The position numbers were made by a program, and so were the translations under genes. This document shows positions 20,022-55,000 of a DNA stretch of 64,000 nt, one piece after another. The first letter of the stretch is position 1; each line of letters opens with the position of its first letter. The stretch covers positions 2,108,001 to 2,172,000 of the forward strand of contig NC_015578.1 in assembly GCF_000214375.1 (NCBI RefSeq). The letters are read 5' to 3'. The notes beneath the pieces were generated by a model, which searched no databases, was not told the DNA's origin, and was given only the letters and a program-made list of their open reading frames with translations. This stretch comes from Treponema primitia ZAS-2. GTDB taxonomy: Bacteria > Spirochaetota > Spirochaetia > Treponematales > Breznakiellaceae.

Positions 20022-20024
20022 GTT

Positions 20025-21388: not shown

Positions 21389-21456
21389 CCAGGGGGCGTC
21401 CGGCTGTCAGTTGGATTGCTCATTATGGCAGTAATACTATTTTTTGGGAGTGTGGT

Positions 21457-22758: not shown

Positions 22759-22771
22759 GAAACTTGGAAAA

Positions 22772-22798
22772 GCCCCCGGTTTTGTCCGGGGGCTTTTT
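22772..22798 (+). terminator. Terminator after the capsid gene
   Basis: GCCCCCGG / CCGGGGGC stem with a short T-rich loop, followed by TTTTT, 13 bases after the capsid stop. Confidence 0.85.
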
Positions 22799-22827
22799 GT
22801 TTCTGCTGTGCGGGAAAATTCGTTTGG

Positions 22828-22861
22828 AAAAAAGCCGCCCCGGCTATAAACCAGAGCGGCG
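22828..22861 (-). terminator. Terminator after the integrase gene
   Basis: On the minus strand: GCCGCTCTGG ... CCGGGGCGGC then six T, 22 bases after the integrase stop. Nearly the same sequence occurs on the plus strand at 16558-16601. Confidence 0.8.
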
Positions 22862-22882
22862 CAATCAAATTACCTTTTTATA

Positions 22883-27300: not shown

Positions 27301-30300
27301 ATGGGTAACATTGTAACGCTTGAGCCCGTTTCCGTAAAGGGTTTTCAGGTCTATCTGCAGCTTCAGGTTCCGTACCGTAAAGTTGGTAGTGATTTTACCA
27401 AAGTTGCTGCTGTCAGGATCAAGCTCCCCTCCTACAATGGCGCTCACCGTCCAGGGGTTTCGGTTGAATTCTCCGGGACTGGTGGCACTCACCCAGGAGC
27501 TTACGGCTGCGTCGCCATTGATATCCGTACCCAGGTTGAATTCCCTGATGATGGGCGGATTGTTCCGTATGTAAATATCCTCTTGATAATGGCTTGCATT
27601 ACCCGCAAGGTCCATCACCACATAGTGAACCGTCAGGGGGCCATCACCAAGGGCATTAATAGTGGTATCGAACCGGGCCTGCCATTCCTTGTCTGGGGTG
27701 CCGTCAAACATTTCAGCAAAGGTACCGTCACCATCACTATCCGTAGTGGCGCCGATTTCCTGTTTGTCGATCACCATGGCATGAACCGATTTCCATACCT
27801 CACCGACCTGGGTCAGTACCGGGAAATTGTTGAAAGTCGGCACAATGGTCCCACCGGCAGCAAAATTCTTCACATTGGAGTAGCTGGTCATGGTGGAACT
27901 CACCTGGCCTGAGGCGTTGAGGTAATTGGTTCCCCGCTGGAAGTAGACCAGCACCCGCTCAACTCCCTGGACTGGCCCGGAAGAGGCGGCGGGTGGGATG
28001 CTATAGTCTCTGGCTATACCGGACACGTAGAACTGACTGGTGGAGGCGCTGTACTGGGTAGTAATCGTCGTCTCAGGGTAGAAGTTATCGATAGCGATAT
28101 TGATAGTTGCGAGTGTAACAAAGGGTGCGGGTATCGTATTGTTGTCGGTTACCTGGAGATCCAGGATGTAATTCCCCGTGGGAAGCTTAGTGGCGTGGGT
28201 AAGGGGGAAGAAGCTGGTAGAATCCACTATAAAGGAGATTGAATACTTAAAGAACTGACCATCCCAGTTTGAATCTGTCGGAGAAGCGCTTGCGGTGGTT
28301 CCTATTGCCTCATAGGCCGTTGCTGAACCGCCGGCGGGCCATGAGCTGCCATCAATTTTTGCCCGTATCATGGTCCCGTCTGCATAGACCTTATCGACAG
28401 AATAATCCAGGTCAATGGCCTCCCAGTCAGCCTGTGAGGCGCTGCCGGGAGTGATAATATGGTATTTCTTCCCAAAAGCCCAACTAGCACGCCCAACATT
28501 TGTGGGGGGCGTAACCTGCCAGCCTGTGGGCAGGGTTACGAGCATATCCGTGAAGAGGGACTCCCCGTTTTGACGGGCCTTTATACTTTTAATGCCCCCT
28601 TCGTCGGTGACATCCGCAGTAATCGTAAAGGTTCCGCCGGCACGCATTCCCGCGCCGTATGGCCGTTCTACGAGGCCCTTGGTAACCTTGATATTAGTGA
28701 TGGTGGGAACGCCGCCGTCAAATTCAACGTTTATCCCCTTGGGGAACCCTACCCGGGTAGCTGCATTATGTTCCGGGACCTGGGTATCCACCGCCCTGAC
28801 CTGTATGGTAACCGGGCGCAGGGCGCCTGTGGGTGGGCTCAATGCACCGTCGGCATTAACATTGTAGTACCATGCTACTACCCTATCGGTATTACCTACT
28901 ATGGTAGCCCATACCCAGCCATCTTCCTGGTTCCCCGCGGTGGGAGGGCCAACAGGATCACCGTTGATCCAACTGTCATCGGGGTCCCTGTAATAAGCAT
29001 TTGAGGTGGTGTCAATAATCCGGATCTGTACCCCGTATATCCAGTCATCGTCAGTGGCGGTGCCGGAAATCCGGACCTCGCCGCCTACCTTGGTCCCGTT
29101 GCTTGGGTTGGCGATGGCAACCTGGGGTATATCCAAATCAGGATCCACCGCTACATTGTAGCGCAGCACCCGTATATTGCCCGCCTGATCGCTTACCTTG
29201 ATGTAGAAGGGAAGGAAAAACGCGCTTCCGACGGCAGGATTGACATCAGAGGGATTGGCTGAATAGCCGCTGAAGTTACTATTTTGGTAGGTCCAGTAGT
29301 AGAGCCCGCCGGACCAGCCTGAGGCGTGAGTGGCACTGGTAAGCAGGGTATCGGTCCATGAGGCTGCATTATAGACCAGCTCATTGGCGGCATCGGTAGC
29401 AGTTTCGCTGTCCCCCAGTTTACCCAGGTGATAGGCGATGGATGCGACGCCGCTTATGGCGTCTTCACTGACACCCCGGAGTTCCGCGCTGCCGTTTATC
29501 CAGGTTTCCGAATCTATGATCTGGTAAATGCCCCCGGTGAGAACGCCGCTTCCCACTGTAAGGGTCACGTTGTTTCCCGTGTCCGGGGAGTTAAAGGACG
29601 CGGTGGGCGGGGTCTTGTCATAGGTGATCTGTCTGGCTACGGTGCTGATCTTACCCGCACCGTCGGTGGCGCTTACGTTCAGGGTATGGCTCCCTTCGGG
29701 GAGGGTACTGCCGCCAGTGACAGGAATGGTAACTTTCCAGGTAGCGTAGGTGGAGTCACCGGTGGAAGTCGCATTCGTTGCGGTCCAGGGCTGGCCATCC
29801 AACTCGGCTTTAACGCTGGCAATACCGTTCAAGTCAGAAGCGGTACCGGAGATGGTTATGGCGCTATTGTAGAAGGATTTTATAGGATCAGTCCCCGCAG
29901 GTACCGATAGTGCCGTGTCTATGGCTACAGTTGGACTCTGCCTGTCGATGCGGAAATCCCGAACCACCGGGGTAATGGCGTTACCCGCCATATCCGTGGC
30001 ATTGATAGTTATTCTGTAATAGCCGTCAGCAACTACTAATCCTGTAGGGCCTAAGTCCTTAGACCAGTTCACCACCGTGTCCCCTATGTTTGAATCCGGG
30101 GGCGCTATGAGGGTTGTAGCTGCCTGGATGACATCAGTAAAGTTACCGGTGCTTGTACCGTCGCTGCTCTTCGCAAGCGTACTGGTGAGGGTCTGTACCC
30201 CGTAAGTATCCCGGGCCAGGCCCAAAACTATGGGATTCGGGTCCGCGAAAGTAGTGAGCGGGGTGGCTGCCACGTTGCTGAATTCCACCACCGGGGGGGC

Positions 30301-33300
30301 AGTATCCTTGATGAAGACCCAATCCACGCTGGCGGTACGTCCCGCATCGTCGGTTGCTTTGATAGTAATGGTGTGGGTACCCTGGGCAAAAGTAGATGCG
30401 TCAAACACGGGTTTTGTTACCCCAACATAACTCAAGGTTTTTGTCCTGTCCGGGGTTCCGAAGGGACCGGCAACGGTTGTGGCAGAATTCCCGTCCCGGG
30501 TAAAAGAGACCTCTTTCAGGTTCGCGTCAAAGGCCGTTCCCGTCAGGGTGAACATCGGGGTAGTGGTCTGGGTGGAGTATACGGTCCCCGAAGCCGGACC
30601 GATGATGGTAATCGTCGGAATCGTGGTGTCTATCTTGAAGCCCATCCAAATGGGGTCATCGCCGACAGTGACAACTTCAAGCGGGCCCGGGGTACTCCCC
30701 TCATTGCCCAGAGCGTCCAATACCTTGATCTGAATCTTGTGGGGCCCGTCGGCTAAGCTCAAACCGGTCAGGGGGATGGCCCAGCTCACATTCTTGCCTG
30801 AGCCGGCGGAAGTCCCCGGGACCCAGTCACTGGCTCCGTCAAAACGGTAGCTAAAATAGCCGGCGCCGGTGGGAACCGTTGAATAGTCATCGGTAAAGGT
30901 CCCCCGCAGTATGGGGTTGGCATCCGCAAGAATCGTTTCACCGTTCTGTGCAGTCGTTAAAGTGTTTCCGGTATAGCTATTGGGAATTAGCACTTCGTTA
31001 ATATTGTTGAAAGAAACTACCGGGCCTGTGGTATCCTTGTAGAAGTTCCATGAGCGGGTAAAAGTCAGGCCCACCTTATCGGTTGCTTCCAGGGAAACAG
31101 AATGGAGCCCATCGTCAAGGGTGTCAAAGACTGCGGCAGGAATGGTAAGGGTCCAGTTTTTGGTATCACCACCGGCAACCAGGTGCAATTCAACGGCTGT
31201 GGTAGAATCATTGTGAGTGCCCACCGAATTAACAGACTGGTCCGTGTCAAGCTTGACACGGAAAGTATCCAGGTTGTGTTCCGTTACGGTCCCGGTAATA
31301 GCGAAGTGGGCTTTATAGGTTTCAGCCTGGCCAGGGGTTATGGCTATCGCCGGAGGTGTGATATCCCAGTTAAAGTTTTGGAGAACGATTATGTTCGTTG
31401 TATCAGGAGTTGTGTCAGGATCCGTAACCAGCTTTACAGCACTATCATCGGAAACCTGTATCTCAACCCGCTTAACAAAGCTATCACCACCCATGCCTGT
31501 GGCAGGAATAGTATAGGTAAAGGATTTTTCCCGATCTGTTCCGGTAATATTAGCTACCGGTATGGTCGTCCAAAGGCCGGTACCGTTTTGCCAACCAGAA
31601 GCACCAGTACCGGTTCCATTGTGGAACCTAATTTGAAGTGAACCACCCAGTATCCCGTCGTCGTCCCGCACTATGCCCCGTACCGTTGTACCGGCACCCA
31701 GCACGGACAGCTCGGACCCCATGGCGGGGCTGCTCAGGGTTACTACCGGGCTATCGGTACGCTGATCCACAAAGACGGTCAGGGGGGTAGAAACGCTGAT
31801 ATTGTGCGCCCTGTCCTGGGCCATGACATAGAGTTTGTACTCGGTAAGATCATCCAGGTCCGTAGTGGTATTAACAAAGGCCGCATAGGTTGAATCGAAA
31901 TCTGCCCCATAGGAATCGGCGTAGAAAGTCGTCAATTCGGTCTGCGTAGAAGCCGGAATGGGATTAAAGCTGCTATAATAGGTGGAGGGTATAAAGAAGT
32001 ACCTGACCCCATCTATACCGTTATTATCCATAGCCGAGGCGGCAAATTTGATAACCCCGTTTATGTTGTCCAGTCTTGTTGTCGGAACTAAGCCGAGCAG
32101 GGGCGGAATATTCATGCCCTCGTTGCTGACCATTGCCGGGGCCATGGTCAGGCTGGTGGTCGGCGGGGTTGTATCCACAATGACCGTAAAGTTCTTGTGA
32201 TCATCCGAAGTATCACCTGGTGTATTATTGTCCAGGGTGTTTTCCTTCCCCGTAACATCATACACAGCGATATTGTAGGTATAATTCCCATCTGCCTGGT
32301 CTTCGAAGGCTACAGTAACCGGCTTTGACTGATCCGAACCTGTGCCTACGTTAATCGATATACCGGTGCCGCTGGTGATTTCCGCGCCGTTTCTGAAGAT
32401 CTTTACCGTATCGGTTGCCCTCAGGGCATTGGAATCAGTCGCGTTAAAGGCAAAGGTATAATCTTTCCCTGCATAGGTATACCCATCAATAGTATTAAGG
32501 CCAGCGGGCGTCCAAGCTTGTATCTGGGGCGGACTGGCATCCACAAAGAAGGGCCGGTCCACATGGGTGGCACTTTGATTCTTCAACTCATCATAGGCAA
32601 CCAGGTGCAGGTAGAGGTTCCCTTCGGTACTCGTATCTATCGCGGGATTACCACCCCAGGTTGCCCCGCCCACAAAAGTCCAATCTGTCAAGGTTGGATC
32701 AGGACTCGCAGTGAGGTCCAAGTTACTTATAGAAGGATTAATAAAGGTGCTGCTCGAATCAATTTTGTAAAATACCGCTATGCCTTCGGGGCTATGGGTA
32801 TCCGAGGCGGTCCCGTTTATGTACAGGGTGGTCCCGGTGGCGGTGGCTCCGGAGCTGGGATTCTGCACCGTTATGACCGGCCCGACAGTATCAATGGTTA
32901 CGGTAAATACCTTCGTAACCGTGCGATCCGTGCGGCCGGTAACGTCCCTGACGGTCAGAGTATAGGTATAGACCCCGTTCGCAGCAATTGTGCTCAGGTT
33001 AGCCAGGTTAGCAGGGTTTGACTCATCCCTGGGAAGGTTTTTAATACCCAGATCCCAACTTGTGTTGAGGATTGTCTTGATATAATCCGTTGTAACAGCA
33101 AGGGGTATAGTCACAATGGCCCCGCCGTCTTTCCTCTGGGTCAGGGTTATGGAATCCAACTTGTTAGTATCAGTAACCGCACCGGTAATGGAGAAACCGG
33201 TTTTAAAGTGGGGACTCACATCATTGTCATAGTAATTTGCCCCAGTGGTGCTGGCATCGACTTTATCGTTCACTTTAACTGCGGTAGCTCCGGGGGGGTT

Positions 33301-36300
33301 GTTGTCCAGCCCAAAGGTGAAGGGGGTATAGGGGTATGCGGAGGAGGTCGCCGGGTTAGTGGCAGGAGTCCAGTTATTGTTCTGGTTTCCTGCGGCGTCA
33401 AAGACCACTACATAGACTTTGTACTCCCCTTCGGTACTGCTTATGGGGAGGGCGGTCGGATCAAGGCTGGTGTTCCAGTCGATGCGGGCAGCGGGGGAAT
33501 TGGGCAGTTTTGTCCAGTTCGTAGTATCCGCCTCGAAAAGGGCCTGGTTAGCATGTAGGGTTGGTAATGTCGCACTTCCTACCGCTATTCTATAGAACAC
33601 TGCGGCAACCTGGTCTTCATCGGAGACGGTACCCCGGAGGGTGTTCACGTCGAGGTTAATGTAGTTATTGGATTGGTTGGCCAGGCTGATAGTTGCCGGG
33701 GCGGTGTTTGCCGCTCCCTGGATAGTCAGTTTCGGCGGGGTCTTATCCACGGTCACGGTCCGGGTGAGCTGGCTTGTCTTTCCGGCAATATCGGTCACGG
33801 TGATGGTATAGGTGTAGGTTCCGGAAGGATCCGCAGGGGTTGAACTTCCGTCAGCGGCTTTGGGCAGACCGATGACGTGCCAGGCATCGTTTTGAGCCCC
33901 GCTGGGGAAGGCGGAGGAGCTGGTAGAGGTATAGGTAATAACTGTACTGGCAAGGATTACCTCAGCGCCGCCTTGCTTTTGCTGTTTTATTTCCAGGCTT
34001 GCCAGACCGTTGGTATCGCCAATCGCGCCGTCCATAGCAAAGCTGCCGGTTACCACTTTGGTTGCGGTGGTATTGATTGTAGTTTCCGTCACAGTCGGCA
34101 GGGCTTTATCCAGCCCGAATTCAAGAGGGGCATAGGTATAGGGCGAATGGGTCGTCCAGTTGTTGTTCTGGTTTCCTGCGGCGTCAAAGACCGCCACATA
34201 GACCTTGTAGGTCCCTTCTACAGCGCTTCCGGCAGTGCCCGCTCCTATGGGAGCGTCGTTAGGATTAAGGATGGCTTCCCAGTTAATTTCGCTGCTGGGG
34301 GTAATTGTCAGCTTTTTCCAGCCATCGGCCTCCGCCTCAAAGATAGACTGAGCGGTGCTGAGGTTGTAGGTTGTCGTGCTGAGAGGGTTCTTCTGCACAT
34401 TATAGAACACCGCAGCGATACGGTTGTCGTCGGAGACCGTGCCCCTAATGGCGTTCGTGGCATCGTTAATCCAGGTAACGGAGCCTACGGTGCTGCCCGG
34501 GTTACGCAGGCTGACATTTGCTGGGGCGGCGAGCGCCGCCGACAGGTCCCCCAGTTTCGGGGGAGTGTTATCCACGGTCACGGTTCGGGTGAGCTGGCTC
34601 GTCTTTCCGGCAAGGTCCGTGAGGGTGATAGTATAGGTGTAGGTTCCCGGAAGATCGGCGCCCGTAGCAACGTTGGCCGGGGTGATCGGATCTCTGGGCA
34701 GGTTGGTGACGCTCCAGGTAGTGGCGGTGATGTTAGGGTTAGTGGTGAAAGTTTGAGTATCAATGGTTACCGTTGTACTGCCCTTGGTTTGGGTTATCAC
34801 CAGGTTTTTCAGGCCGTAGCTGTCGGAATCAGCCCCGCCCATACTGAATGCGCTGGGCTTTACCTGGGCGGTGGCGCCGACGGTGGTTTCCGTAAGGGTC
34901 GGCGGAGCCAAATCCAGCCCGAATTCCAGGGGGAGATAATTGGCTGTATACGGGTTTGAGGTCGTCCAGTTATTATTCTGGTTTCCTGCGGCGTCAAAGG
35001 CTACCACATAGACCTTGTACTTTCTTTCTACCCCATTTATGGGGATTGGTAGGGTGTTTGTTGTAGGATCAAGGACATCGGCCCAGTTAATTTCATTGGT
35101 GGGGCTAATGTTCAGAGTTTTCCAACCAGTATCCGCAACGAAGGCAGCTTTGTTGGTACCCAGGTTATAGGTCGGGGCGAGGTCACCAAAGGGCTGTATT
35201 CTATAGAACAGCGCGTCAACCTGATCGTCGTCGGAGACGATACCCCTGAGGGTATTCCCTGTACCGCCAATCCAGTTAACGCCGCCATCCAAGGTAAAGG
35301 CGGCCAACTTGACATCCGCCGCAGCACCGGTTCCGGCTCCCAGGGCGCCCAGTTTCGGGGGGGTAGTATCCACCGTGACCGTCCGGATGATTTGGGTGGT
35401 CTTGCCGGCAATATCAGTGACGGTGATGGTATAGACGTAGGTTCCGGAAGCGGCAGTACCGCTCAAGGGAGTTGAACCGTCCGAGCTCTTGGGCAGACCG
35501 TTGATGGTCCAGCCTATAGTACCGGAGTCCCCGGGGCTCCAAACGGTATCATAGTTTATAGCCGAAGGGTCAATGTCTACCACAACGCCGGTCTTTTCCT
35601 GTTTTACCGTCAGGATTTGCAGGCCGTTAGTATCCCCAATTGTCCCCGCCAGGCTAAAGCCGCCGGGCATCATCTGAGTTACGGTGGTATTGATAGTATC
35701 CGTAAGAATTGGCGGGGTCTTATCCACCCCGAAGTGAAGGGGCGTATATGGGTAAAGTGAGGCGGTACCCGGGATCGTTGCGGGGTCCCAGTTGTTGTTC
35801 TGGAGTCCTGCGGCGTCAAAGACCGCCACGTAGGCTGTGTACTTCCCTTCAGTGCTTATGGGGAGAGCCGAAGTCTGAAGGATGACGGCCCAGTTAATTT
35901 CGTTGCTGGGGTTAATTTCCAGCTTTTTCCAGCCATCGGTACTCGCAGTGGCAGTATCAAAGTTAGCCTGGGTGGTGCCAAGGTTATAGGTTGTTGTATC
36001 GAGGGGTGTCTCACTGTCCGGCACTATGTTATAGAACAGCGCAGCAATACGGTCGTTGTCGGAAACGTAACCCCTGAGGGTGTTCGGAATGCCGTCAATC
36101 CAGCGGACCCCGGATATGGTGTTGCCCTCGGTGGCCAGGCTGACGTTTGCCGGGGCGCTGTCTAAGGCGGACCTGTCTACCAGCCTCGGGGGGCTGACAT
36201 CCACGGTCACTATCCGGGTGAGGCTAGCCGTCCTCCCGGCAAGATCCGTGAGGGTGATAGTATAGGTGTAGGTTCCCTCAGCGCTGGTGCTGGGCATGGA

Positions 36301-39300
36301 GGGAACAGACCAACTATTAGAACCGGGATTAGTAAATGAGATTATATTTAATACCGTTACGGGGGTCGAGACTCCGGCTTCTTTCTCCGTAATAATCAGG
36401 CTTTTCAGCCCAACCGTGTCAGAGGCCGTACCGCCCAGAGCAAAGTTTAGGGGCTTCCTTACCTGGTCATTTGTGTTTATTACATTTTCTACCAGAGTCG
36501 GATAACCCGTATCCACACCGAAATCAAAGGCGGCGCCCATGTTGTTGTTCTGGTTTCCTGCGGTGTCAATGACCGCCGCATAGATTTTGTACTCCCCTTC
36601 AACAATAGCGCTACCACTCCAAATGGGGGCGTCTGTTGCAGGATTAATCGTGATGCTCCATTCGTCGGAGGTTCCGCTGCTAAGCTTCCTGGTAAAGCCT
36701 TTGCTTAAAAAGTCGGAGTCCCCGGATGCTGCGTTAATTAAAGGAGCGTCGTCAGTCGCTTTCTGTATCTTGTAATACAGGTTAGCTAAACTGTAGTTAT
36801 CGGCAGCGGGTATCTTAAAGGTAAAGGTACCGCCCACCCAGGGGGTGGTTGACGCCGGATCTATAACCCCGGCGAGTACAGCTATGGTCCCCAGGGTCGG
36901 CACGGTATCGTCCACCCGGACCGTCCGGGTCAACAGGGTTGTCCTACCCGCTTTATCCGTGGCGGTGATCACATACTCGTAGGTTTCGTCGCCAGTAACG
37001 GTCGGCAAGTTAGATATAGACCAGGTATTAGAACCGCCAGTGAAGGCGGTCGTCGGATTAGTCGGCTGATCGTATATCACCATCGGCGTGCCCGAGCCTT
37101 TTTTCTGTGTAATAACCAGGCTTTCCAGCGCATTGCTATCTTCCACATTGCCGTTCAGGGTAAAGCCGCTTTTACTTACCGCAGCCGGAGTGTTTGCAGT
37201 CAGGGTAGGCGGAGTGGCATCCACCCCAAATGCCAGGGGGGCATAATTGTTATAGGCCAGGGGAGGATCCCAGTTGTTGTTCCAGTTTCCTGCGGCGTCA
37301 AACACCGCTACATAAACCTTATACCACCCTTCAGTGGTGATGGCAGCAGTAGTGGCGGTCCAGCTCTTCTGCCCAGGCCCGGTGGTGTCCAGCTTTATCC
37401 AGTTATTAGGCGTAAGAGCCGCAGCTTCAAAAGCTGCCCGCGTGGTTTCACCGGGTGCGCTGTCTAAATACGGCAGTATCTTATAAAATACCGCCCCTAT
37501 CTCGTCATTATCATAGACGGTTCCCCGGAGCAGGTTTGCATCGCCGTTAATCCATATCTCAGTAGGGGCGAATGCAGGGGAAACTAATTTCGCGTTCAGG
37601 TCTATGTCTGCCTTGACGTTCACCGACAATTCTGTTTCCAGTTTCGGGAGGGTGGTATCCACCTTGATCTTCCGGGTTTCCGTAGCGGTTCTTCCGGCTA
37701 TGTCAGTGACGGTAATCTCGTAGATGTAGGTCCCGTCCACACTGGGAGCGGGTGTGGTAATAGATGTATAAGGGCTAAGAGGATCCCTGGGCAGCCCATT
37801 GGCGATTGACCAAGTACTGGATGTGGGAGAAGTAAAGGGGGTTGTCGGGTTAGTCGGTTGATTGTATATGGTCACCACGGGACCTGAATCTTTTTGCTGG
37901 GTAATAACCAGGCTCTTCAGTGCATTGCCATCCCCAACGGTGCCGCTTAAGCCAAAGTTCAGCCCCCGCCTCTGGGTATCGGAGGTATTTATGATTTCGC
38001 TCACCGTCGGAAGTTCTTTGTCCACCCCGAATTCAAAGGGAGTGTAATTAGTTCCCGAGTACGGAGTACCGGGAGACCCTGTCCCTGGGATTACAGCCGG
38101 GACCAAGTTGTTGTTCTGGTTTCCTGCGGCGTCAATGGCCGCCACATAGATTTTGTACAGGCCCGAAGATGCAGGAAGGGCAACAGTAACGGTCTGGTCG
38201 AAGTTGGTTCCGGTAAACGCTATTTTTGTAAAGCCGGCGCCGGTTAAAGCACTATCGCCGGAAGTTGCCGTAATAGAGGGATCAGCATTAGCTACCTTAT
38301 AGTACACCGCAGCTAACTTGTTGGTATCCTGTACGGTTATGTTGAAAGTAAAGTTAGCGGCATCTAAGTTATTACTCAACCAGGGAGGTGTGATCGCGCT
38401 GTCTATAACCCCGGTCAGGGTGTTTATAGTGCCCAGGGTTGTTGTCCCCAGGGTCGGTACGGTATCGTCCACCTGGACCGTCCGGGTTTCCACGGCGGTC
38501 CTGCCCGCTTTATCCGTGGCGGTGATGGTATAGGTGTAGATTCCGTCGCCGATAACCGTAGAGGGCAAGCTGGGGGTTGTCCAGGTCCCTGTAGTGGTTT
38601 GGGTTAAAACAATTGTACTGCCAGTCACGCCCGCCTTAGTTTGGACTACCACCAGGTTGTGCAGGGCGTTACTATCCGACACATTGCCGTTCAGGGTAAA
38701 GCCGCTTTTACTTACCGCAGCCGGAGTGTTTGCAGTCAGGGTAGGCGGAGTGGCATCCACCCCGAATGCCAGGGGGGCATAATTGTTATAGGCCAGGGGA
38801 GGATCCCAGTTGTTGTTCCAGTTTCCTGCGGCGTCAAACACTGCTACATAAACCTTATACCACCCTTCAGTGGTGATAGCAGCAGTATTGGCGGTCCAGC
38901 TCTTCTGCCCAGGCCCGGCGGTGTCCAGCTTTATCCAGTTGTTAGCCGGAAGATCAAAAGCTGCCCGCGTGGTTTCACCGGGTGCGCTGTCTAAATACGG
39001 CAGTATCTTATAAAATACCGCCCCTATCTCGTCATTATCATAGACGGTTCCCCGGAGCAGGTTTGCATCGCCGTTAATCCATATCTCAGTAGGGGCGAAT
39101 GCAGGGGAAACTAATTTCGCGTTCAGGTCTATGTCTGCCTTGACGTTCACCGACAATTCTGTTTCCAGTTTCGGGAGGGTGGTATCCACCTTGATCTTCC
39201 GGGTTTCCGTAGCGGTTCTTCCGGCTATGTCAGTGACGGTAATCTCGTAGATGTAGGTCCCGTCCACACTGGGAGCGGGTGTGGTAATAGATGTATAAGG

Positions 39301-42221
39301 GCTAAGAGGATCCCTGGGCAGCCCATTGGCGATTGACCAAGTACTGGATGTGGGAGAAGTAAAGGGGGTTGTCGGGTTAGTCGGTTGATTGTATATGGTC
39401 ACCACGGGACCTGAATCTTTTTGCTGGGTAATAACCAGGCTCTTCAGTGCATTGCCATCCCCAACGGTGCCGCTTAAGCCAAAGTTCAGCCCCCGCCTCT
39501 GGGTATCGGAGGTATTTATGATTTCGCTCACCGTCGGAAGTTCTTTGTCCACCCCGAATTCAAAGGGAGTGTAATTAGTTCCCGAGTACGGAGTACCGGG
39601 AGACCCTGTCCCTGGGATTACAGCCGGGACCAAGTTGTTGTTCTGGTTTCCTGCGGCGTCAATGGCCGCCACATAGATTTTGTACAGGCCCGAAGATGCA
39701 GGAAGGGCAACAGTAACGGTCTGGTCGAAGTTGGTTCCGGTAAACGCTATTTTTGTAAAGCCGGCGCCGGTTAAAGCACTATCGCCGGAAGTTGCCGTAA
39801 TAGAGGGATCAGCATTAGCTACCTTATAGTACACCGCAGCTAACTTGTTGGTATCCTGTACGGTTATGTTGAAAGTAAAGTTAGCGGCATCTAAGTTATT
39901 ACTCAACCAGGGAGGTGTGATCGCGCTGTCTATAACCCCGGTCAGGGTGTTTATAGTGCCCAGGGTTGTTGTCCCCAGGGTCGGTACGGTATCGTCCACC
40001 TGGACCGTCCGGGTTTCCACGGCGGTCCTGCCCGCTTTATCCGTGGCGGTGATGGTATAGGTGTAGATTCCGTCGCCGATAACCGTAGAGGGCAAGCTGG
40101 GGGTTGTCCAGGTCCCTGTAGTGGTTTGGGTTAAAACAATTGTACTGCCAGTCACGCCCGCCTTAGTTTGGACTACCACCAGGTTGTGCAGGGCGTTACT
40201 ATCCGACACATTGCCGTTCAGGGTAAAGCCGCTTTTACTTACCGCAGCCGGAGTGTTTGCAGTCAGGGTAGGCGGAGTGGCATCCACCCCGAATTCAAAG
40301 GGGGTATAGGTATATGGCGAAGGGGAAGACCAGTTTCTGTTCAGATTTCCCGCAATGTCAAAGACCGCCACATAGAGCGTATGCCGCCCTTCGGGGGCGG
40401 TAATGGAGCTGCTCCAGGTAGAATCGGGGTTGATAGCTACCTTTGTCCAGCCATTTATTGCAGCCCCGGCAGGATTTTCAAAATCGGATTTGGTGCTTCC
40501 AGTGGGGGCAGAACTTGCTATCTTATAAAATACTGCGCTTACCGCATCGTCATCGTAGACTGATCCACCGAGAATGTGAGCGGCATCATCAATCCAGACA
40601 TCACCGGTAACAGGCGGGGTGGTCAACAAGTGAGGTAACAAGTTTATGTCCGCCTTATTAGTTGGCCCGGTCGCTATGGTCAGTTTCGGTGGAGTGGTAT
40701 CCACCCTAACGATAAATTTTCTATAGGGGTCAAGTTCCTGGGTATTATGTTTGTCGACGATATCCTTTATATCAAAAATGTACTCATACTCTCCCTGTGC
40801 CGGGGCTGTGACATCCAATTTAACATGGACTGATGTAGTATCCGTAGGAGTTGGCATGGGAGAAATAGTAAGGACATAGTCGTTTACGGACCACGGCAGG
40901 TTTTCGCCGTTTCTGGTGATAGTAACGCTATTAGGTGTATTAAGGGCATTGGAATCGGTGGCGTCAAATTCAATTATGTAATCGCCATGGGCGTAGTTTT
41001 TCACACCGATAAGAGTTGTGTCCAGAGATTGAAAGTGATCTATTACCGGCGGAGCAGTATCCAAATAGAACTGCCGGTCCACAATATCGACGCTCTCATT
41101 ACCCAGCCTATCGTAGGCGAACACATGCAGGTAGCGTACTCCTTCAGCCCCCCCTGGGGTCGATGCGGTCGGATCAACCCAGCCTGGGTCGATCTTGTGC
41201 CAAACAATATTAAACGGCGATACGGATGTTGGGGATGGTTTTGTGCCTGAGTAAAGGGGGTTACCGTCAATAGTGTACCAAACAGCATCTGGTTCGCTCA
41301 GGGCATCCAGGTTCGTCCCGCTTATACGCAGGGTAGTGTCGCCGATACCAATGCCGGCGGTGGGGGTACTTATGGTTACTACCGGCCCGGTGGTGTCCAC
41401 AATGGCGGTGAAGGTATAGGTGGAGGTTCTGGGGTAAGCAGCAGTAGCAGTACTAACGGTAATATCCGTTACAGTAAAGGTGTAGGTGTAGGTGCCGTCA
41501 TAGGTATGGCTGCTCAGATTGGCCAGGCTGGAAGGAGAGCCAGGGTCCCTGGGCAGACTGGGGATATCCAGGGTCCAGGACGTATCACTCCCGAAAGGCG
41601 TTTGAGTATAAGTGGCGCTTATCGGAATGTTATGGCTCGGCGTCGAGCTGCCGGGGGCGGGTACAAAAACCTGGCGCAGGGTTATGGACGCCAAATCGTG
41701 GGTATCGCTGACGGTCCCGCCTACGGAGAAACCTGTATTACGGTGTACACCGGTAGCCAGGTCGTTCAAGGTGACGGTGTTGGTGGGGTCATCTTTAAAC
41801 TTGATGGTTGAAACTGTGGGCGCAGCATAATCCACACCGAATGGATAGGCAGCATAGTTGTAATACTGTACCGGGGAAGTACCCGGAATTTCTGCCGGAG
41901 CCCAGTTGGCATTCCAGTTTCCCGCAGCGTCAAAGGCCGCCACGTAAGCTACATGTCGGCCCTCAGGCAGCGGAGGAGTATTAACGGTGTCGCTCCAGTT
42001 GGATTCCCCTGAGCTGGCGATAGTTTTCTTTGTCCAACCATTTATGGGATTTTCAAAATCGGATTTGGCGCTTTCTGTGGGGACGGCAGCGGGGACTGCA
42101 ACTATCTTATAAAATACCGCGCTCACCTCATCCGCATCATAGACCTTTCCCCTGAGGGTGTTCGATTCTCCGCTGATCCAGTTTCCGGTGCCATAGGCAC
42201 CCAGGTCGCGGATGACGGCAC
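24376..42221 (-). pseudogene. Giant Ig-repeat lipoprotein, body and C-terminus (cut off from its start by an inversion)
   Basis: About 5948 codons, open without interruption, continuing the frame of the 42352-44667 gene. As the DNA stands, the only start for this part is an ATG at 42243 inside an inverted segment, with no signal peptide, so it is probably not made as a surface protein in this orientation. It is a chain of Ig-like beta-sandwiches of two alternating types: one ends TDxAGRTxxxTRxxxVD, the other has xAVFYxI and FDAAGNxNNN. The last ~330 residues differ, with repeated [ILM]-[AST]-Y-[YF]-D style blades (IAYYDKSDGRL, IAYYNATETGG), like a small beta-propeller. It holds a 1.5-kb tandem duplication (37146-40293). 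Likely adhesin or cell-surface scaffold when intact. Confidence 0.85.
37146..40293 (-). repeat. Recent 1.5-kb tandem duplication inside the giant gene
   Basis: Unit A (37146-38681, 1536 bp) and unit B (38682-40208, 1527 bp) are nearly identical, and a partial third unit runs to about 40293. The units differ by one 9-bp indel near 37410/38945 and a few substitutions. Each encodes about 509 residues, several Ig-like domains, and keeps frame. Confidence 0.92.
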
Positions 42222-42442
42222 TGAGCTTGTGGTATACAACCATCCAAGCTTTTCTCCCGGCTCAAACACATGGGGTGTCGGCAGTTTGCCCTCCACCGGC
42301 GTGGACGGGACCTATACCTATAATATTCTCGCCACGGATATTTCCGGAAGATCAACCCCCGTGACCCGGAAGATCAAGGTGGATACCATCCCCCCGAAAC
42401 TGGGAGCCGAACTTGGCCTTGCTTCGGACATTTCCCTGCTCA
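42222..42442. other. 221-bp inverted segment within the giant gene
   Basis: Bounded by TGAGC (42222-42226) and GCTCA (42438-42442). Inside, the plus strand encodes typical repeat sequence of the minus-strand gene (VDGTYTYNILATDISGRS, then RKIKVDTIPPKLGAELG). Flipping it back joins ...SLVIS-ELVVYNHP... on one side and ...ASDISLL-SAVIRDLG... on the other, both in frame, making one frame from 44667 to 24376. Confidence 0.95.
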
Positions 42443-44667
42443 CTAATAACCAGGCTTTTCATTCCGACCAAGTCCGACACCGTACCGCCCAAACTAAAGC
42501 CCATCGATTGCCTTGTGACAGCATCGGTGTTTATTATAGTTTCCGTCAAAACCGGAGACTTCGTATCCAGGATAAAGTAGACGTGCTGGGAAGCAGCCGG
42601 GCTTGCATTTAATACCGTGGTTATGGCAGTACCGGTCTGTAGATAATTTTTGGTAATTTTATCGTCCGCAATTCCTATTTCAAAGGAATATATCCCATCC
42701 GGGACATCAGTGGACAATGTAGCCGTAAAGCTCACCTCTTTGCGGGGCAAAGCGGGGGGCACCGGGGTGGGAGCAAGGGGGCTGATCACTACATCTACAG
42801 TTCCGGTAATCGGGGCGCCGTCCTTGTTGTAAAATTTTACGCTGCCCGTATTATCGTTCTTCCAAATAATGTCTTCCAGCCTGACCCCGTCATCGTCAAG
42901 GAAGCTTCCCTGGATGACCCTGGTATTGAGCAGGCGGTTATCGGTGGTGGCCAGGAGTGCAGCTTCGGTACCGATGGTATCGACAAGGCTGGTGAGCACA
43001 ATTTTTGGTTTATCAGTATCCTGATCCGCATCTAAGAGCACTACCGAGCGCTTATAGTTGCCCGCCTTATCCTTGGCGACAATATGCAGGTAGTTCAACC
43101 GGGAGGTAAAGGCGGTGGTATCAATGACTACCGATGCGCTTGTGCCGGCCTTCTTGTATACCGGCGCTTCGGGTGCATCAAAGAATGTGGCGGCGGCATT
43201 GTTGTACAGCGTTACCGGATCGTCTTCTTTACTGGTAGAGATGAGGTATTTGATCTCCCGGTAGTCGCTCTGCTCTTTATCGTATCCGATGTTATTAGCA
43301 TCATTGGCAACAACATCTGCGGCAATGAAGCCGTTTACGATAAACTGCTTCATCTTGTCGGTCGCTTCGCTTTCCTCAACATTCGGCTGTATCCGGGATA
43401 CATCTACCTCAGGCGGGGTCGTGTCTATGTAGACTGTGTAGGCCTTGGAGGATTCGCTGCCCTGGTTACTGGTGGTGGCAACGGTAAATTCATATTCGCC
43501 ATCGGTGAAGGTATAGTCCTCCAGGTCTTCATCGGTATACTTTGGATCAAAGTCGGTTTGTTCATAGGGCGTTCCCGGTGTTATTACATGGGATTTCAGT
43601 ATCCGCTCCATACGCTCAGGCGGATCGGATGCCAGCGTATTAGCCGTAAATTCCGCACGGGCCAGGATAGTTGCTGCAGCATCCCCGGCTTTCCTAACCG
43701 AGAGCGTGGCTATCCCTATCCCCGCCGAATGGCTGAGGTTCGCTTCGATCGTAAATTCTTTATTCTGGTAATCATTAACCAGGGGGGTAAACGTAATTTT
43801 GGGGAGTTCATTGGCTTTTATTATTTCCAATTTCCAGGGGGCATCTTCTTTAGGAGGGTATTGGGCAACGTGGATTTGTTTGCCATCCTCAAGAATCCCG
43901 TCCCACACCAGCAAGCGGTAGGAGTAGGTCCCTGTGGGCAGACCCTGGGGCTTTACCGTGGAGCTGGGCTTGTAGGGGTGCGCATCGGGAGCAATCCCAT
44001 AGTACCGGAAATTGACAAACTTTTTCCCGTCATCAGGATAGTCGGAATCCATGTCCGACCAGTCATCAGGTTCGTCGTTACCGTCAAGCCAAAACTTGAT
44101 TTTCGGGTAGCCCTGGGCGATACCCATATCGTCATTGGCCACGCCCCCTAAATAACCGCCGGAAATCATTTCCGCCAGTTCCTTATCCTCTTCTTTCAAC
44201 GGGGTCTGCACTTCCACTGTGGGGGGGCCGTTCTTAACCCTAAAGGGCAGTTCCTCGGAAACCACTGCCTTGCCTGTTCCGTCCCAGGCCTGGAGTTTAA
44301 CCGTTACATCGCCATTTAACCCTTCAAAACCTAATTCATTCAAGGTATCCAGGGTGACGAGATAGTTGCCCCCATTGGAAGATATATAGCTCGTCGCATC
44401 TTTGGTAATCGAGACATTGCCGGAGCCGTCAGGTTTCTTCCCGGTAACGGTGATGCTTACCCGGCTGATGGACATATCATCGGTGGCGTTTATTTCAAAA
44501 GATACATTCGATCCCCAGATAAAAGGGTTTTTGCTCGGAGACGGGGATACCAGATTTACTTTAGGAGGTTCTATATCAACCTTATTGCCCAAGCCTGCCT
44601 GTATCGGATTTTCGCAAGAAATCAGAACCAGGATTGCCAGACTTACCAATGAAAGTTTTTTATACAT
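42352..44667 (-). CDS. Giant Ig-repeat lipoprotein, N-terminal part (truncated by inversion)
   Basis: 771 residues. Lipoprotein signal MYKKLSLVSLAILVLISC, Cys18. The N-terminal ~340 residues are shared almost unchanged with the giant gene at 46054-61251. Then come Ig-like domains with DTTPPEVD-type joins. The last 28 residues are foreign, from reading the inverted 42227-42437 segment on the wrong strand, and end at a stop at 42352. With the segment reversed the frame continues to 24376 for a 6763-residue lipoprotein. As it stands, a short lipidated surface protein could be made. AGAGGT precedes the ATG. Confidence 0.9.
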   Translation of the reverse strand: MYKKLSLVSLAILVLISCENPIQAGLGNKVDIEPPKVNLVSPSPSKNPFIWGSNVSFEINATDDMSISRVSITVTGKKPDGSGNVSITKDATSYISSNGGNYLVTLDTLNELGFEGLNGDVTVKLQAWDGTGKAVVSEELPFRVKNGPPTVEVQTPLKEEDKELAEMISGGYLGGVANDDMGIAQGYPKIKFWLDGNDEPDDWSDMDSDYPDDGKKFVNFRYYGIAPDAHPYKPSSTVKPQGLPTGTYSYRLLVWDGILEDGKQIHVAQYPPKEDAPWKLEIIKANELPKITFTPLVNDYQNKEFTIEANLSHSAGIGIATLSVRKAGDAAATILARAEFTANTLASDPPERMERILKSHVITPGTPYEQTDFDPKYTDEDLEDYTFTDGEYEFTVATTSNQGSESSKAYTVYIDTTPPEVDVSRIQPNVEESEATDKMKQFIVNGFIAADVVANDANNIGYDKEQSDYREIKYLISTSKEDDPVTLYNNAAATFFDAPEAPVYKKAGTSASVVIDTTAFTSRLNYLHIVAKDKAGNYKRSVVLLDADQDTDKPKIVLTSLVDTIGTEAALLATTDNRLLNTRVIQGSFLDDDGVRLEDIIWKNDNTGSVKFYNKDGAPITGTVDVVISPLAPTPVPPALPRKEVSFTATLSTDVPDGIYSFEIGIADDKITKNYLQTGTAITTVLNASPAASQHVYFILDTKSPVLTETIINTDAVTRQSMGFSLGGTVSDLVGMKSLVISEQGNVRSKAKFGSQFRGDGIHLDLPGHGG

Positions 44668-46053: not shown

Positions 46054-49000
46054 CTACTTCTTGATGTAGGCCCGTTCGTAATTCACGTTGGTCTGATACC
46101 CCAGCATTACGGTATTCTTAAGGTCTATGGCAGTACCGGGGAAGGTTCCCCCTGTGGGCACGCCGTTGCAGACGTATTCGTCCACCGGGGTGTTCACCGT
46201 GGGGATGGTCATGGCTTCCCAAGCGCCGGTGTAGGCATCAAGTACCGCGCCGTCCGTAAGGGCGTTGAAGTTGTTTCTCCAAACCACCCGCACGGAGTTT
46301 TGGGTCTGGGGGAATGAGGCGTGGTAGTAGGAGATATAAGGCACTATGACATCGGTACTAGGTACGCCATTTACCGTCCTTTTTTCTTCCCTGGTGTTGA
46401 TCATCAGCTTGGTGCCTGCGGAGAGGTAGGAATCTACGGTAACCACCACAGGGGTGGCGGTGTAGGAACTCATGTACGCATACCGCAAATCCCCGGTGCT
46501 GTTGGCATAGTAGGCCAGGTGGATGCCGTTGTTCTTGTCTACCGTCATATCCACATACCAGCCTGCAAAATCATTATCAATTACCCTGGCGTTACTCTGC
46601 CAGACAGAGGTGGGGGTGTTGCCCTGAGTGGGTGCAAGGCCTGTCGAATAGGAGAACACTAGCTGCCCTGCACTGGCATCGTACCAGGCGATAACCGCCC
46701 GGCCGTCACTTAAGGCGCCCACTGCAGTATACAGGCCGCCCTTGTAGTTGGTGGAACTATCCGCAACCACCTGGAAGCCGGCGGCTGATCCGCCTGCCTC
46801 GTTAATATCGGTAAGGTTGCTCGCTAAATCACCGGTTATAGTATTCGCTGCTGTGCTTTCTCCATACCGGAAGATCACGGGATTATTGGTTTTGTTACTA
46901 TCATAGTAGCTCATGTAGATCTTCGCGGGGCTTGCCGAAGTTCCTGCGCCGATAATAGCAATACGGGGTATCTTAACCCGGTTAATATTGTATATCCCCG
47001 TGTCGGTGTTTAAACTCAATTCCAGCCGGCGCTTATTTGTTCCGGTATTATAATTTCCCGTATCGGTGCCAACCATAGAACCCGGCGCCCTGCTGAAGAA
47101 AGTAAAGGAGGTGGCGCCGGTTATGGTGTCCTGAATACGGTCCGTATTGGTGCCACCACCGTAATAATTCTGGCTGCTATCAATGGCAACGGTGGTGTTG
47201 TGGTATTTATTGTAGGAACTTTCAAAAAGCGCTGAGGTTCCGTTCTTGTTAAAGCGCATTTGTTTAACGCCCTGTCCATAGGACATATACCAGTTACTAC
47301 TCGCATCCATGCGCATAAAGGGGCTGGTAATGTCCGCGCTGCTTATCATGTCCGCGGTGTTCCACACATAGAGGTTGCGGTCATCGGTGAGTATGTTGTT
47401 GTTCACATTGTTCGGCTCCTGGGTATAGGCCGCAGTGGAGCTGTTGCTGTTATTCACCGATGTAACACCGCCGACGGTAACCACCAGTGGGCCGGAAACA
47501 TGGGTGGCGGCGATGGGTAGGGTTATGGTGTTTACATTGGTCACCGTTATAGGCGCCGTAGTCCCCTTTATCGTGGCAGTGGCGCCGGTAAAGTTAAAGC
47601 CCCGCACGGTGACGGTTTCCCCTTCCCGGACCGAATACCAGCCCAGGGCGGAACGGTCAAAGGTCGAGGGAGTGGATACATACGCCGAGGATAGGCGGGT
47701 GGTGAGGCCGGAAATATAGGGCGCGGTCTTTAAGGTGATGGTATTGTAATTGCTGTTGCTATCCGTCGGGTTCACCACTGAGGCGCTTTCATTCCCGTCC
47801 ACCGGGCCGGGGGGAGTATAGTCATCATACGTGGGAATACGGGCGTCCACGGCTATGACCTGAACCGGGGCATTCCCGGCCATGGGGGTTCCACCGATTC
47901 CTGCCTGGGTATCCCAGAGATAGGCCCATTCGACCCTATGGCCGTCCAGGGTAAGCTCATCGTAGACCCAGGCGTTTGCGGTATTAACAGGGGTCAGTTG
48001 TCCGCTCACCGTATTGATGATGGTAACAATAGTAGCATTGGTGAATTTCAGCCTTATTTCGGAAATACGCTGGTTGTCCTCGGCGTAGCCCCGGAGTATG
48101 ACCTTGCCGCTCACTATATCTGTGGTGACGCTCGGCTGGAAAACATAGGTCCCAGCCTCGTCCTTTTCCAAGAAGATATTGGCGTTAGTATCACTGGTTC
48201 CCCGGGGTTCGATATGCCCGGACTTGGAGGCGGTTCCGCCTGAGCCTATCACATGGATGCCGCCCCTGTTCATGTTATTTCCCAAGGCAACGGGTCCTAT
48301 GTTGGTCAGAGTAGTGTTGGTGTTGGTGTCCGGGTTCCTGGCAATGGGATTGAGGTCGTAAAGCCGCGCCGTGGGCAGTTCCACATCTCTGTTTTCCACC
48401 CGCAGTCCCACCACGATCATGTCGAAGAGCTGCTGGGATTCCCCTTCTCCGGGAACCGTGGTGTCCCAAACCTTGATGATGAAGAAGGCCCCGTCAAGCC
48501 CGGTTTCCGGTATATTGTTAAATTCTAGGCCGATATAGTTAGTGGAAGCGGAATTGGCGCTAAAGTTCCCGGTCTTTTGCGGCGCCGTGGTATTTATGGT
48601 ATAGTTCCACACCGAACCGGTTCCGGTGGCGGAAGGCCCGTTGGCGACCGCCACAAAGGTAAGCCCCACAGTAGCGCTTTCCGCCCCGAGGCCCACCCAG
48701 TTGGTGGTACCCACATTATTTATGGTGTAGATCTGTCCGGTTTGGATGGTTGACGCATCGGCGCTGGCCCTGGTGGCATGGGAGATCCGGTAATTAACCG
48801 CACCGTTTCCGCGGTCCTTGGTAACCGCAAAGGAAAGCCGCCGGTTCCGGGCTGTAAAGCCTGAGGTCAGATAATTGGCGGTATAATCCTTGGTCCCGCC
48901 GGCGAAGGTTCCCAATCCGCGAATGTCGGTGCCCAGGGTCACCTTGGTGATCTTGGGGGCGTTGTTCTTAACAAAGAGTTCCTTCTCATAGTACCGGGCG

Positions 49001-52000
49001 TTCCCCGCGTTATCAAAGATAACGTAATGCAGGGTTACGGGGCCATCGGCGAGCTGGTGGGAATTGAATATGGCGTACCATTCCTTATTGGTACCATTGT
49101 CGTACCAGGCTTCAACATAGCCGTCGCCATCGGCATCATGGAAAGAACCGGTTACCTCGTTGTTATTATCAATGGTGATCCCCGACAAATTGTTCGCCGG
49201 GAAGCTGGATATGGTTGTAACACTACCGCCTTGGGTCATGTCTTTTACCAACTGGTTCTTGCTGGTAAAGGTATCGGTGTTCTTAAGGGGCAAGTAGGTC
49301 CTGGCGCCGCTGATTATACGGCTGAAATAAACCGTTACGTGGCTGAGGCCCTGGATGTTTCCCGAACCGGCCCCGTAGTCCCTGGCGAGCCCCCGGATGT
49401 AGTAGTCATCGGTCATGGTATTCGGGGCGGTATAGTCCCCTTCGGGATAGAAGTTATCCACCTGGAGATTCAGGATCTGCTGGGTCTGGTAATGGTACGC
49501 GGAGTTGTCAACACCCTTGATGCTCAGGGAATAGTACCCTGTGGTATCCAGATGGGATAGAAGGCTGTTTACCGAAACCTGGAATTTGTAGACAAAGTTT
49601 CCGGCGCCGTCCGCCGCATAGGCTGTTCCCGAACCGGTTCCTGTGGTGCTGGTGGCTATAAAGGTCTCGCCTACCGTATTGGTAGAGGCGCCGGGGAACA
49701 CAGACCCGGAAGGGGCGGTCACGATCAGGTATTTTTTCCCAACATTAAAGGTACCGCCCGGAAGGCTTACCTGGGTCGGGGTTGTTACAAGGGATGAGCC
49801 AATCAGGTTGGCTCCGTTGTCTTCATAGGAACCGGTATTGCCCCGCCACTGGATGGCGGAAAGGCCGCTTTCGTCCCGGACATCAGCCCGGACCGAGAAA
49901 GTCCTGGAGACCTGCATACCGTCGGTATAGTCTTCCCAGCTACTATCCTGGTTCCGTTTAACTTGCACAAACTCAATTACCGGTATCTCGCTGTCAAAGA
50001 AGATGGTTATCTGCTTATAGGGTGTAATATCATACTTATCACCGCTTGTCCCGTAATTCTTTGAATCCTGGGACCGGGCCTGGACGACTATCTTCCTTTG
50101 CTGTCCCGGAAGGGGGTTATAATCCCCTGTACTGTTGATAAGGGCATACCAGGTTACCTGGGACCCGCTGCTGCTCTTTACTGCGGGTATCCATGGATCA
50201 AAGGTGTCTCCTGCCGCGTCGGGGGTAGGATCAATACGTATCTCGACCCCGTAAATCCAGTCGTCATCCGTGGCGATACCGGATATACGGACCTCCCCAC
50301 CTACCAGATCCCCGTTTTCGGGACTGAGGATGCGCACATCGGGATTATCCCCATCGGGATCGATCAGGAGGTAGTGGATGGTATTGCCGTATGCGGGATA
50401 GATGGTTTCACCGGTATTGCCCGCACGGTCTATGGCCTGGACATTAAAGGGGAAGAGCCAGTAGTTAAAATTAGGATCATTCTGATCCACCAGGGGTCTG
50501 GGTATACCGTAACCATCCACATCTTCGGGATCAACCCGGTAGGAATAGGTTGTGTTGGCGTAGGTAACAACATTGTCGATGGTAAAGTTCCAGCTGTACA
50601 GTCCTCCCTCCCAATTAGTTACGTGGGAGGCAGCATCCAAAGCGGTATCCGTCCAGGTGCTGGCATTTTTTCCAAGTTTAAACATAATTTTAGAAAGGGT
50701 GTTGTTGTCGTTGGCGGTTCCCCGGATCGTTATTTTCCCGTTTACCTTGGCCAGACGCTGGGGGTCTTCCATCCTGACTGTGGGTGCTGTTTTATCCAGG
50801 ATAAAGTCCTTGTACACGGTCTTAACCCGGCCTGCCAGGTCCGTGGCCTCCACATTCAGGGTATAGGAACCTTCGGTAAAGAGACTTAGGTTCACACTCG
50901 CGGTCCAGTTCTTTTGGCCCGGGGTGCCGGAGTCGGTCAGGGAGGCAGTTACCGGAACTGAAGCGGTTCCCGTTGCCGAGACCAGCCAAAGCTTGACCGC
51001 ACTGATGCCGTCGTAGTCCAGGACGGTCCCGCCAAAGCTCACGGTTTCCGCCTTATAGTAGGACTGGATGGTGTTCAGGGTGAGGACAGGGTCCGCCCGG
51101 TCAACACGGAAATACACCGGCACCGAGGAACTTGGGTTAAGCACCTTATCCTTGGCGGTGACGGTAATCCGGTAATAGCCGTCCCCATTGGCCAAAAGGC
51201 CCAGGGCGACCATGTCACTGGTCCAGTTCACCGTGGTCTGCACCGACGGGGTTACGGTAGTCGTGTTGAAAGTGCTCCATGTACCGCCGGGGAGGCCATT
51301 GTTGCTTTTTTCAATTAACCGGGTAATTGTTGATACCTCGTAGGTATCACTGGTTACTCCCAGGACACGGGGGCTGGCATCCATAATAATGGTGGCCCCT
51401 CCGGTTTCAACGTTGCTTAATACCGTCACCGGGGGGGTAGTATCCTTGATAAAGGTCCACTCCGCCGTGGTGGTCCGGCCTGCATCATTTTCCGCCACCA
51501 CCGTGAGGGTATGGGGTCCCTCTGTAAGGGTACTTAGTTCAAACACATTCTTTGTTACGTTGTAGGTAAATGTTACTTTTTTAGGAGGACCAGCGGTAAT
51601 TGTGTTAAATGTTGTGCCGGGAGCTTGTGCGTCAAGCTTTATATTGACATTTTTGATGCTGTTATCCGTGGCGTAACCGGTGAGGGTAAGCACCGGATCA
51701 GAGGGATTGGTAATGCCAACCATGCCGAACACATTTCCCGAAACTTCATTAAGGATCAGGACCGGCGGGTGACCGGCTATCTTAAAGCCTACCCAGGTAC
51801 TTGTCCCTTCGTTTTCCAAAGCATCCCAGACCCTGACTTTTACCCGGTGGGCGCCGTCCCCCAGGGTATCCAGGGGGATGCTCCACTGCACAATCTTCCC
51901 GGCGCCGGTAACCCCCGGACTGGGGGGGTTGGGGGGAGAGGGGGGTGGGCTAATTACCGCATTTGTCCAGGTGGAGGCATCGTCCATCATGTACTGGAAC

Positions 52001-55000
52001 AGGGGGCTAGCGGAAAGCTTTATATCCGAGTATTCGTCCACAAAGGAACCCCGCAGCACGGGAGTTTCGTCAGAGATGATACTGGTTACTGCGTTCAGGG
52101 CAGTGGTGACCGGGCCACTGGACATTAGTCCTTCAGGAATTACTTCACCGGCTATATTGGCAAAGGAAATCGCCGGGCCGGTGGTGTCTTTGTAGAATAC
52201 CCACTGCACTTCGTGGTTCAGGCCGACCGCGTCAATAGCCTCCAGGGTGATGGTATGGGGGCCCTGAGCAAGGGATGAAAAGTCGGCGGGGGTCAACAAT
52301 TCAGGGAGGGTATAGGACCAGACTACATTGGTCCCGGAAGCGACAGCCTTAGTAACCCAGTTCCCGCTGCCAAGACGGGCCCTGAAGGTTTTCAAATGCA
52401 GCTCAGTTACCTTCCCTGTTACGGTGAAGTTGTCCTTATATTTCATTTGCCCGGTGGAACTATCTACGGTTAACACCGGACTGACCGTATCCACCACAAA
52501 GTTTTGTATAACCGGGATTGCGGCTATATCGAGCTCCTCTGCGGGACGGACCTTTTTGAGGTGATCGTCTTTAACACTTATCCTAAGCTGCTTATCACCG
52601 TCATTACCGGAGCCGTAGGGGATGGTGCAGGAGAAATTGACGGACTGGCCGGAACCGGACACGGAACCGGCCTGGGTAACCCAGGTAGAGCCGGCATCGG
52701 AGGAAAACTCGAATAAAAGGCTGCTGTTCAGCACCCCGTCGTCATCGCTTACGGTGCCCCGGAGTATATAACCACCGGACACAATCGGAGGAGTGGGGAA
52801 GTCGTTCAGGGTTATCTTCGGTTTATCTGTGGACTGATCCACATAGAAATTCAGATACGCCTTATTGGTCAGCCCAGTCGTATCCTCTGCCCGGATATAG
52901 AGATAGCAATCCCTCAGATCAGTTAATGCTGCCGTGTTATAATAGATGTCAATGGGGAACCCTGTAAAAGGATCGGATATTACAACATCTGTGGAATTGG
53001 CAAATACAAAGGTCGTGGGATCACTGGAATCAGGATTGAATGCTGAGTTAATGCTCGACGTATGGGGTATCAGGTACCACTTAACTTCTTTTATGCCGTT
53101 ATTATCCCCGCCGGTGGCGCTAAAGCGGATGTACCCGTTTACATTGTCTTCCCTGGCATTGGCGCTTACCATTATGGGCTGCCTGGTGATGCTGACTTCC
53201 GGCGGCGTGGTATCTACCACCACGGTGTATGATTTTTTACTGGCAAAAATAGTTTCATCATCAACATAATCACTGCCCGGCTGATTTTCCTTGCCCGCCA
53301 CATCTTTGATGATTATTTCGTAGCGATAAGTCCCATCGTTTGTATGGCCGCTGGCGTCTACCGCCTGGTTTACCGTAACGGTCTTCCGCTGATCAGTACC
53401 GGTTGCTATGGAAATACCTGAGGTCAAGGCAGTCCCGTTTAATTTCACCACAATGGTGTCCAGCTTGTTGGAGTCATAGGCATCAAACTTAAAGCTATAA
53501 CCCGTCCGGGCGTAATTACCGTCTCCAATGACAGTAATAGAGTTGGGAACAAAGCTTCGTATGTCCGGAGGAGCAAGATCCACGTTGAATTTGATACCTG
53601 AATGGCTGCTTTGGTTACCCACTTCGTCGTAGCCGATCATGTGGAGGTAGCGCACCCCTTCGCTAATTGAACCGGCCGTAAGGGTGTGGTTCCAGGTGGT
53701 ATTACCGCTGACCGTAGCCCAGGGGGTGGCGGGGGGTATTTCGGTGGGGGGGGTGGTGGAGCTGTTGACCGCAAAATAAATGGCGCCCACGGCACTCAGT
53801 GAACCCGGATCACTGGCAGTTCCGTTGATAATCAAGTTACCACCGGTTATGGAACTGGACCCGTCCGGCGCGGGGTACTGCACGGTTATTACCGGGCCGG
53901 TTTTGTCGTACACAATCGTAAATTCTTTTGATATGCTCCGGTCCGATCTGCCGGTTTTATCTTTTATGGTGAGGACATAGCTGTATTTTCCCTCGTCAAC
54001 CGTAGCGCCGGGGTTAGTTACGGCGTTCCAGGGCAGGTTCGGGATATTCAGGGTCCAGGACGTGTCGTTGCCGCTGGTCTGCGGATAGTGGGGCGACTGG
54101 GTAAGGTTTAAGGTCCTGGCGGCCTCTAAATTTTTCCGTTCAGTCAGGGTTATGGTGTCCAGGCCGTTGCTGTCCGTAACTATCCCTTCCAGGGAGAACC
54201 GGGTTTTTTTATGGGGCGCCGGATCGGACAGCTCGGGATCCAGTGACCACCATGACAAATCGGTGTTTTTCAGTTTCAGGGCCGACAAATCCGGCTTGCT
54301 CTGGTCCACCCCGAATATATAGGGGGTGATATAGTCTACCAGGGGAGTCGGGCTTGCCGGGGGGATGGAAGTTACATTGTTAGTCTGATTTAACACATCG
54401 TCAAAGGCCACCACATAGATCCTGTATTTTCCTTCTGTAAGACCAGCTGATGTAGAATTAGGCCATGTAGTACCGGCGCCGCCCAGGGTGACCGAGTCCC
54501 TCCAAGTAGTTCCGCTAAGGGTCGCTGCATTCCAACCTGAGCTGGAAGCATTGAAGGTTGTAAGGGGGGTGGCTTCGGTGATAGACGGGGCAGGATCACC
54601 TTCCGCCTGTATCCTGTAAAATACGTGACTCACTCCCACATTATCCGTAACCGTACCCATGATCTGGGGGGATTCGCCTGAGACCCAGGAATTGGGCAAA
54701 GGATGCTCCACCGGCTGGCTTACGGGCCTTATCCCCAAGGAGGGATTTCCCAGTACCGGAGGAAGTGCATCCACCTTAAGGTAACGCTCGATTATGGTGG
54801 TCCTTCCCGCTTTATCCGTGGCGGTAATCTTATAGTAGTACTCCCCGCCGGGATTAGCTGCTGTAAAGGGCGAACCACCCGTGCCGTCCCAGTTATGATT
54901 AGCAGGCTCCCAAGGTAAGTTGGGGGCTCTCCAGTTAGTAGACCCCGGGCTTGCAGTAAATCCAGTGGTTTTGTTGTAAATGGTATAGATGGTTCCGCCG

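Follow-up and report, generated by a model that had tools for sequence, protein, structure and literature searches.

An inverted coding segment within a giant gene for a putative Ig-repeat lipoprotein of Treponema primitia

The gene considered here belongs to Treponema primitia, a spirochete of the termite gut. It resembles other bacterial Ig-like repeat proteins (Big_13, Big_7, Big_3_2) in its giant size, its repeated Ig-like domains and its lipoprotein-like start, and differs from them in being very long (6763 codons once the segment described below is turned round) and in having several copies within one spirochete genome. Two kinds of short inversion offer a comparison for its present arrangement. 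Intragenic invertons of the Hin, Fim, Mpi and RecV type likewise involve a short flipped segment in a surface-protein gene, and the T. primitia genome does contain tyrosine recombinases; in contrast to these systems, however, our segment has neither inverted repeats at its ends nor an identified dedicated invertase, and it is known in one orientation. Published invertible segments carry inverted repeats that are typically 10-20 nt long (PMC5903667) or span 10-40 nt (PMC11892184). With spontaneous micro-inversions the locus shares a short in-place flip, a broken frame and the lack of a recombinase site, and its left end falls in a hairpin. The confirmed spontaneous inversions of Salmonella have short inverted repeats, for which a cut-off of 12 bp was deduced in a study that selected for junctions with longer repeats (PMC3411829), whereas no such repeat can be detected at the homology-pinned ends of the segment described here. 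Judged against those cases, an inversion without an inverted repeat would not be of the commonest kind (PMC3411829).

The inverted segment and the frame it interrupts

The window, that is, the whole stretch of DNA analysed, comprises 64,000 bp (bases 2108001-2172000); the genome from which it comes is complete, in one contig of 4,059,867 bp. Positions refer to the window unless they are marked as genome positions, and the features are collected in Table 1. A literature search returned no paper on the giant gene or on the method by which the genome was sequenced.

As assembled, the gene is divided into two separate ORFs, of which the first is the 771-residue short form described in the original prediction. 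A computed flip of 42222-42442 confirmed the accompanying claim that turning the segment round removes the stops and leaves one frame of 6764 codons with its stop: the flipped gene is a single frame of 6763 codons followed by one terminal stop. In the present orientation the frame has only two stops besides the last, with their first bases on the minus strand at 42354 and 42264, and both lie within the segment. The claim that the plus strand of the segment carries an Ig repeat of the minus-strand gene was borne out as well. When the turned-round domain was used as a query, its middle part matched the plus strand at about 42217-42444 (E 1.5e-44) with no stop, and the remaining repeats of the giant gene were all found on the minus strand in the same search. 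The inverted coding segment in the assembled sequence is solid and lies far beyond chance. Because the genome holds no second copy of it (the next best DNA match is 77% identical over 111 bp), the segment must have been flipped in place, and a donor copy elsewhere that was inserted backwards is ruled out. No other antisense repeat segment turned up in the giant genes that were examined.

Three Pfam domains score above the cut-off in the giant gene: Big_13 occurs both upstream of 33376, together with Big_3_2, and in the C-terminal part, together with Big_7. The N-terminus of the 5' ORF reads MYKKLSLVSLAILVLISCENP, which by eye looks like a lipoprotein signal. Elsewhere in the gene, 37426-38776 and 38953-40303 form a tandem duplication of 1350 bp (99.7% identity, offset 1527 bp) that is evidently recent. 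The 15-mer TGACTGTCACCTTTT, perhaps a dispersed repeat, occurs four times in the window (4619, 5335, 24346 and 45926).

Table 1. Features of the giant-gene locus (window positions unless marked as genome positions)
Feature	Position	Strand	Description
Giant Ig-repeat gene (putative lipoprotein)	24376-44667	minus	6763 codons with the segment turned; from ORFs, Pfam and paralogues
5' ORF, present form	42352-44667	minus	771 aa: 741 native and ~30 wrong-strand residues
3' ORF, present form	24376-42243	minus	5955 codons; ATG inside the inverted segment
Inverted segment	42198-42445	plus	Codes for part of an Ig-like repeat belonging to the minus-strand gene; from in-frame-flip profile scan and antisense match
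Hairpin GGTGCC-ATA-GGCACC	42187-42201	none	Left end of the inverted segment falls in it
Tyrosine recombinase	22883-24121	minus	Matches phage integrases (phrog_1, 3e-42)
Intact paralogue	46054-61251	minus	5065 codons; 62% identical over the N-terminal 741 residues
Further giant genes	genome 2644851-2647037, 2225911+, 2846810+		

Placement of the ends and the sequences around them

In-frame fusion cannot pin the ends of the segment, because 1431 start/end pairs near 42222/42442 also give one open frame. The ends were placed by scoring in-frame flips against a profile of 11 aligned sister repeats. Three pairs score best, at 239 bits (42198/42445, 42199/42444 and 42200/42443, for a length of about 244-248 bp), against 221 bits for 42222/42442, so that the 221-bp segment first proposed falls 18 bits below the optimum. 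That pair is worse by about 15-18 bits in all profiles. Every leave-one-out profile leaves the best ends unchanged to within one or two bases, and profiles built from small subsets give 42198-42209 and 42437-42445. Being defined by homology only, the ends are uncertain by a few bases (42198-42210 and 42436-42445).

The proteins predicted from the two placements differ in a recognisable way. With ends at 42222/42442 the repeat reads SLVISE-LVVYNHP, without the hairpin loop of the sister repeats (SLVITQQKDSGPVVTIYNQP), and has 17 residues from VI to the next tryptophan, where most homologous repeats have about 20 to 35. With the flip at the profile-best ends the protein reads GMKSLVITQVADDGTELVVYNHP, and the hairpin loop (SLVITQVADDGTELVVYN) is regained. 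A loss of 5-9 codons at one end was considered and dropped, since the loop is present in the adjacent plus-strand frame when the left end is put at about 42199. Models in which end bases may be lost or duplicated improve the score by no more than about 4 bits, and do so with extra free parameters; a near-lossless inversion, about 246 bp long, therefore suffices.

The exact inverted repeat at the best ends measures 0-1 bp. A search area of 70 x 45 contains two exact inverted repeats that are 5 bp or longer, where a simple calculation gives an expectation of about 2.3; the longest anywhere nearby does not exceed 5 bp, and none of about 10 nt or more lies at the ends. Imperfect arms of 24 bp match at 11 of 24 positions, against a mean best of 12.2 at random. 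The TGAGC/GCTCA pair, put forward both as the ends and as a 5-bp microhomology through which a one-off rearrangement had occurred, stands at chance level, since 42% of random pairs of stretches within the giant gene reach an exact inverted repeat of at least 5 bp. The microhomology must be given up, whereas a one-off event is still the best fit. Homology to sister repeats can, as here, locate the ends of an inversion and expose a tempting chance 5-bp repeat. The hairpin at the left end has the sole stem of at least 6 bp in 42100-42550. It gives no more than a hint at a replication-based mechanism, because stems of this size are frequent in the gene (2.1 per kb across its length).

Explanations for the inversion

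We consider it probable that a recent one-off micro-inversion inactivated the giant gene. The part missing from the minus strand is present in antisense and has no second copy, its reversal regains the frame at both ends, and the flip is near-lossless. On this reading a stretch of about 246 bp, from one Ig-like repeat close to the start of the gene, would have been turned round in place by an illegitimate event, for example template switching in replication or the imprecise repair of a break, that used no significant inverted repeat and cost few or no bases. Ku-dependent end joining (classical NHEJ) is ruled out among such mechanisms, no Ku having been found in the genome. We infer that function was lost with the flip, as translation would stop after the 741 native and 30 foreign residues; the downstream 17.8 kb retains an open frame, and its 5955-codon product is probably not exported because it lacks a signal peptide. 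No other stop or frameshift is present, which argues that the inversion is recent on an evolutionary scale, and the core of the original prediction, a recently flipped segment within a giant lipoprotein gene, appears to hold. That no further lesions occur across 20 kb, and no stops in the flipped segment, shows either that little time has elapsed or that parts of the gene are still under selection.

Second in rank, after a one-off micro-inversion, comes a cloning or finishing artefact, in which a rearranged clone or a finishing error would have left a 246-bp stretch wrongly oriented in the reference and not in the organism. Such an error would account for a segment without decay inside a 20.3-kb frame that is otherwise intact, and the near-identical 1.35-kb tandem duplication some 2 kb away in the same gene makes the region awkward to assemble. 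However, the duplication and the segment do not overlap, the segment is single-copy and it is not flanked by inverted repeats, so that an assembler would have had no reason to flip it. Since a flip by an assembler needs inverted repeats at the ends, repeat-driven misassembly, which the original prediction had listed as an option for this repetitive DNA, is disfavoured, and we regard an artefact of any of these kinds as unlikely.

The window had been said to hold no invertase gene, but it does contain a tyrosine recombinase, 255 bp from the stop of the giant gene, albeit one that looks like a prophage integrase. This gene ends a block (12996-24121) that also encodes a phage primase/helicase, an excisionase-like protein, small and large terminase, portal, head protease and an HK97-type capsid protein, with no tail gene among the ORFs scanned; the block may be what is left of a prophage, or else a satellite-like element that forms capsids. 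On account of the phage-integrase match and the neighbouring phage head genes, we read the recombinase as probably the integrase of this adjoining phage-like element. Across the genome there are eight tyrosine recombinase matches and no serine resolvase/invertase. Two recombinases of the Piv/IS110 type score above the cut-off; both are far from the segment, no link to it was found, and they were set aside as flipping agents. A second tyrosine recombinase (genome 2224036-2224566) is found some 1.3 kb away from another giant Ig-repeat gene (genome 2225911-2227209), an arrangement like that in the window which may reflect chance or an insertion preference common to both.

A reversible off-switch, in which a site-specific recombinase would flip the segment and so turn the full-length surface protein on and off, had also been suggested. 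It would suit a gene for a surface-type lipoprotein, a near-lossless flip and the placing of tyrosine recombinases just past the end of this gene and close to a second giant gene. Against it, the homology-pinned ends have no inverted repeat of the kind that published invertible segments possess, the genome is without a serine invertase, the adjacent tyrosine recombinase is grouped with phage head genes, nothing comparable is flipped in the other giant genes examined, and the case is known from one orientation of one sequence. We therefore hold a switch to be very unlikely. Its most specific form, a 246-bp within-gene switch that lacks recognisable inverted repeats and is run by a tyrosine recombinase of the genome, possibly the gene-adjacent one, is more doubtful still. 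Least credible of all is an old inversion whose two ORFs now work as separate genes, a short lipoprotein and a downstream protein from the ATG at 42243: neither ORF is interrupted anywhere along its length and GGGAG stands about 10 nt upstream of that ATG, but the flipped segment keeps a perfect antisense frame that matches the paralogues and would not have survived in an old inversion, the 5955-codon piece lacks a signal peptide, and the paralogues are single long ORFs.

Paralogues and significance

Five long Ig-repeat lipoprotein-like genes were found in the genome, the split gene among them. The further copies, at least four in number, have open frames of about 2000-6200 codons, and those of the intact paralogues run to about 5065, 5723 and 6178 codons. 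Paralogues and relatives from other genera alike are open across thousands of codons. Identity to the relatives in other genera is only about 32%, and five same-genus genomes gave one weak match (36%); no close orthologue of the locus was found in those five genomes or in the genome contig and viral contig collections. The presence of intact paralogues may have relaxed selection on the split copy.

In this spirochete reference genome a small inversion in place divides one of the long surface-protein genes, and an annotation as two genes would mislead. Should the inversion be real in cells, a giant Ig-repeat protein would recently have been inactivated in a genome whose paralogues of it are kept intact.
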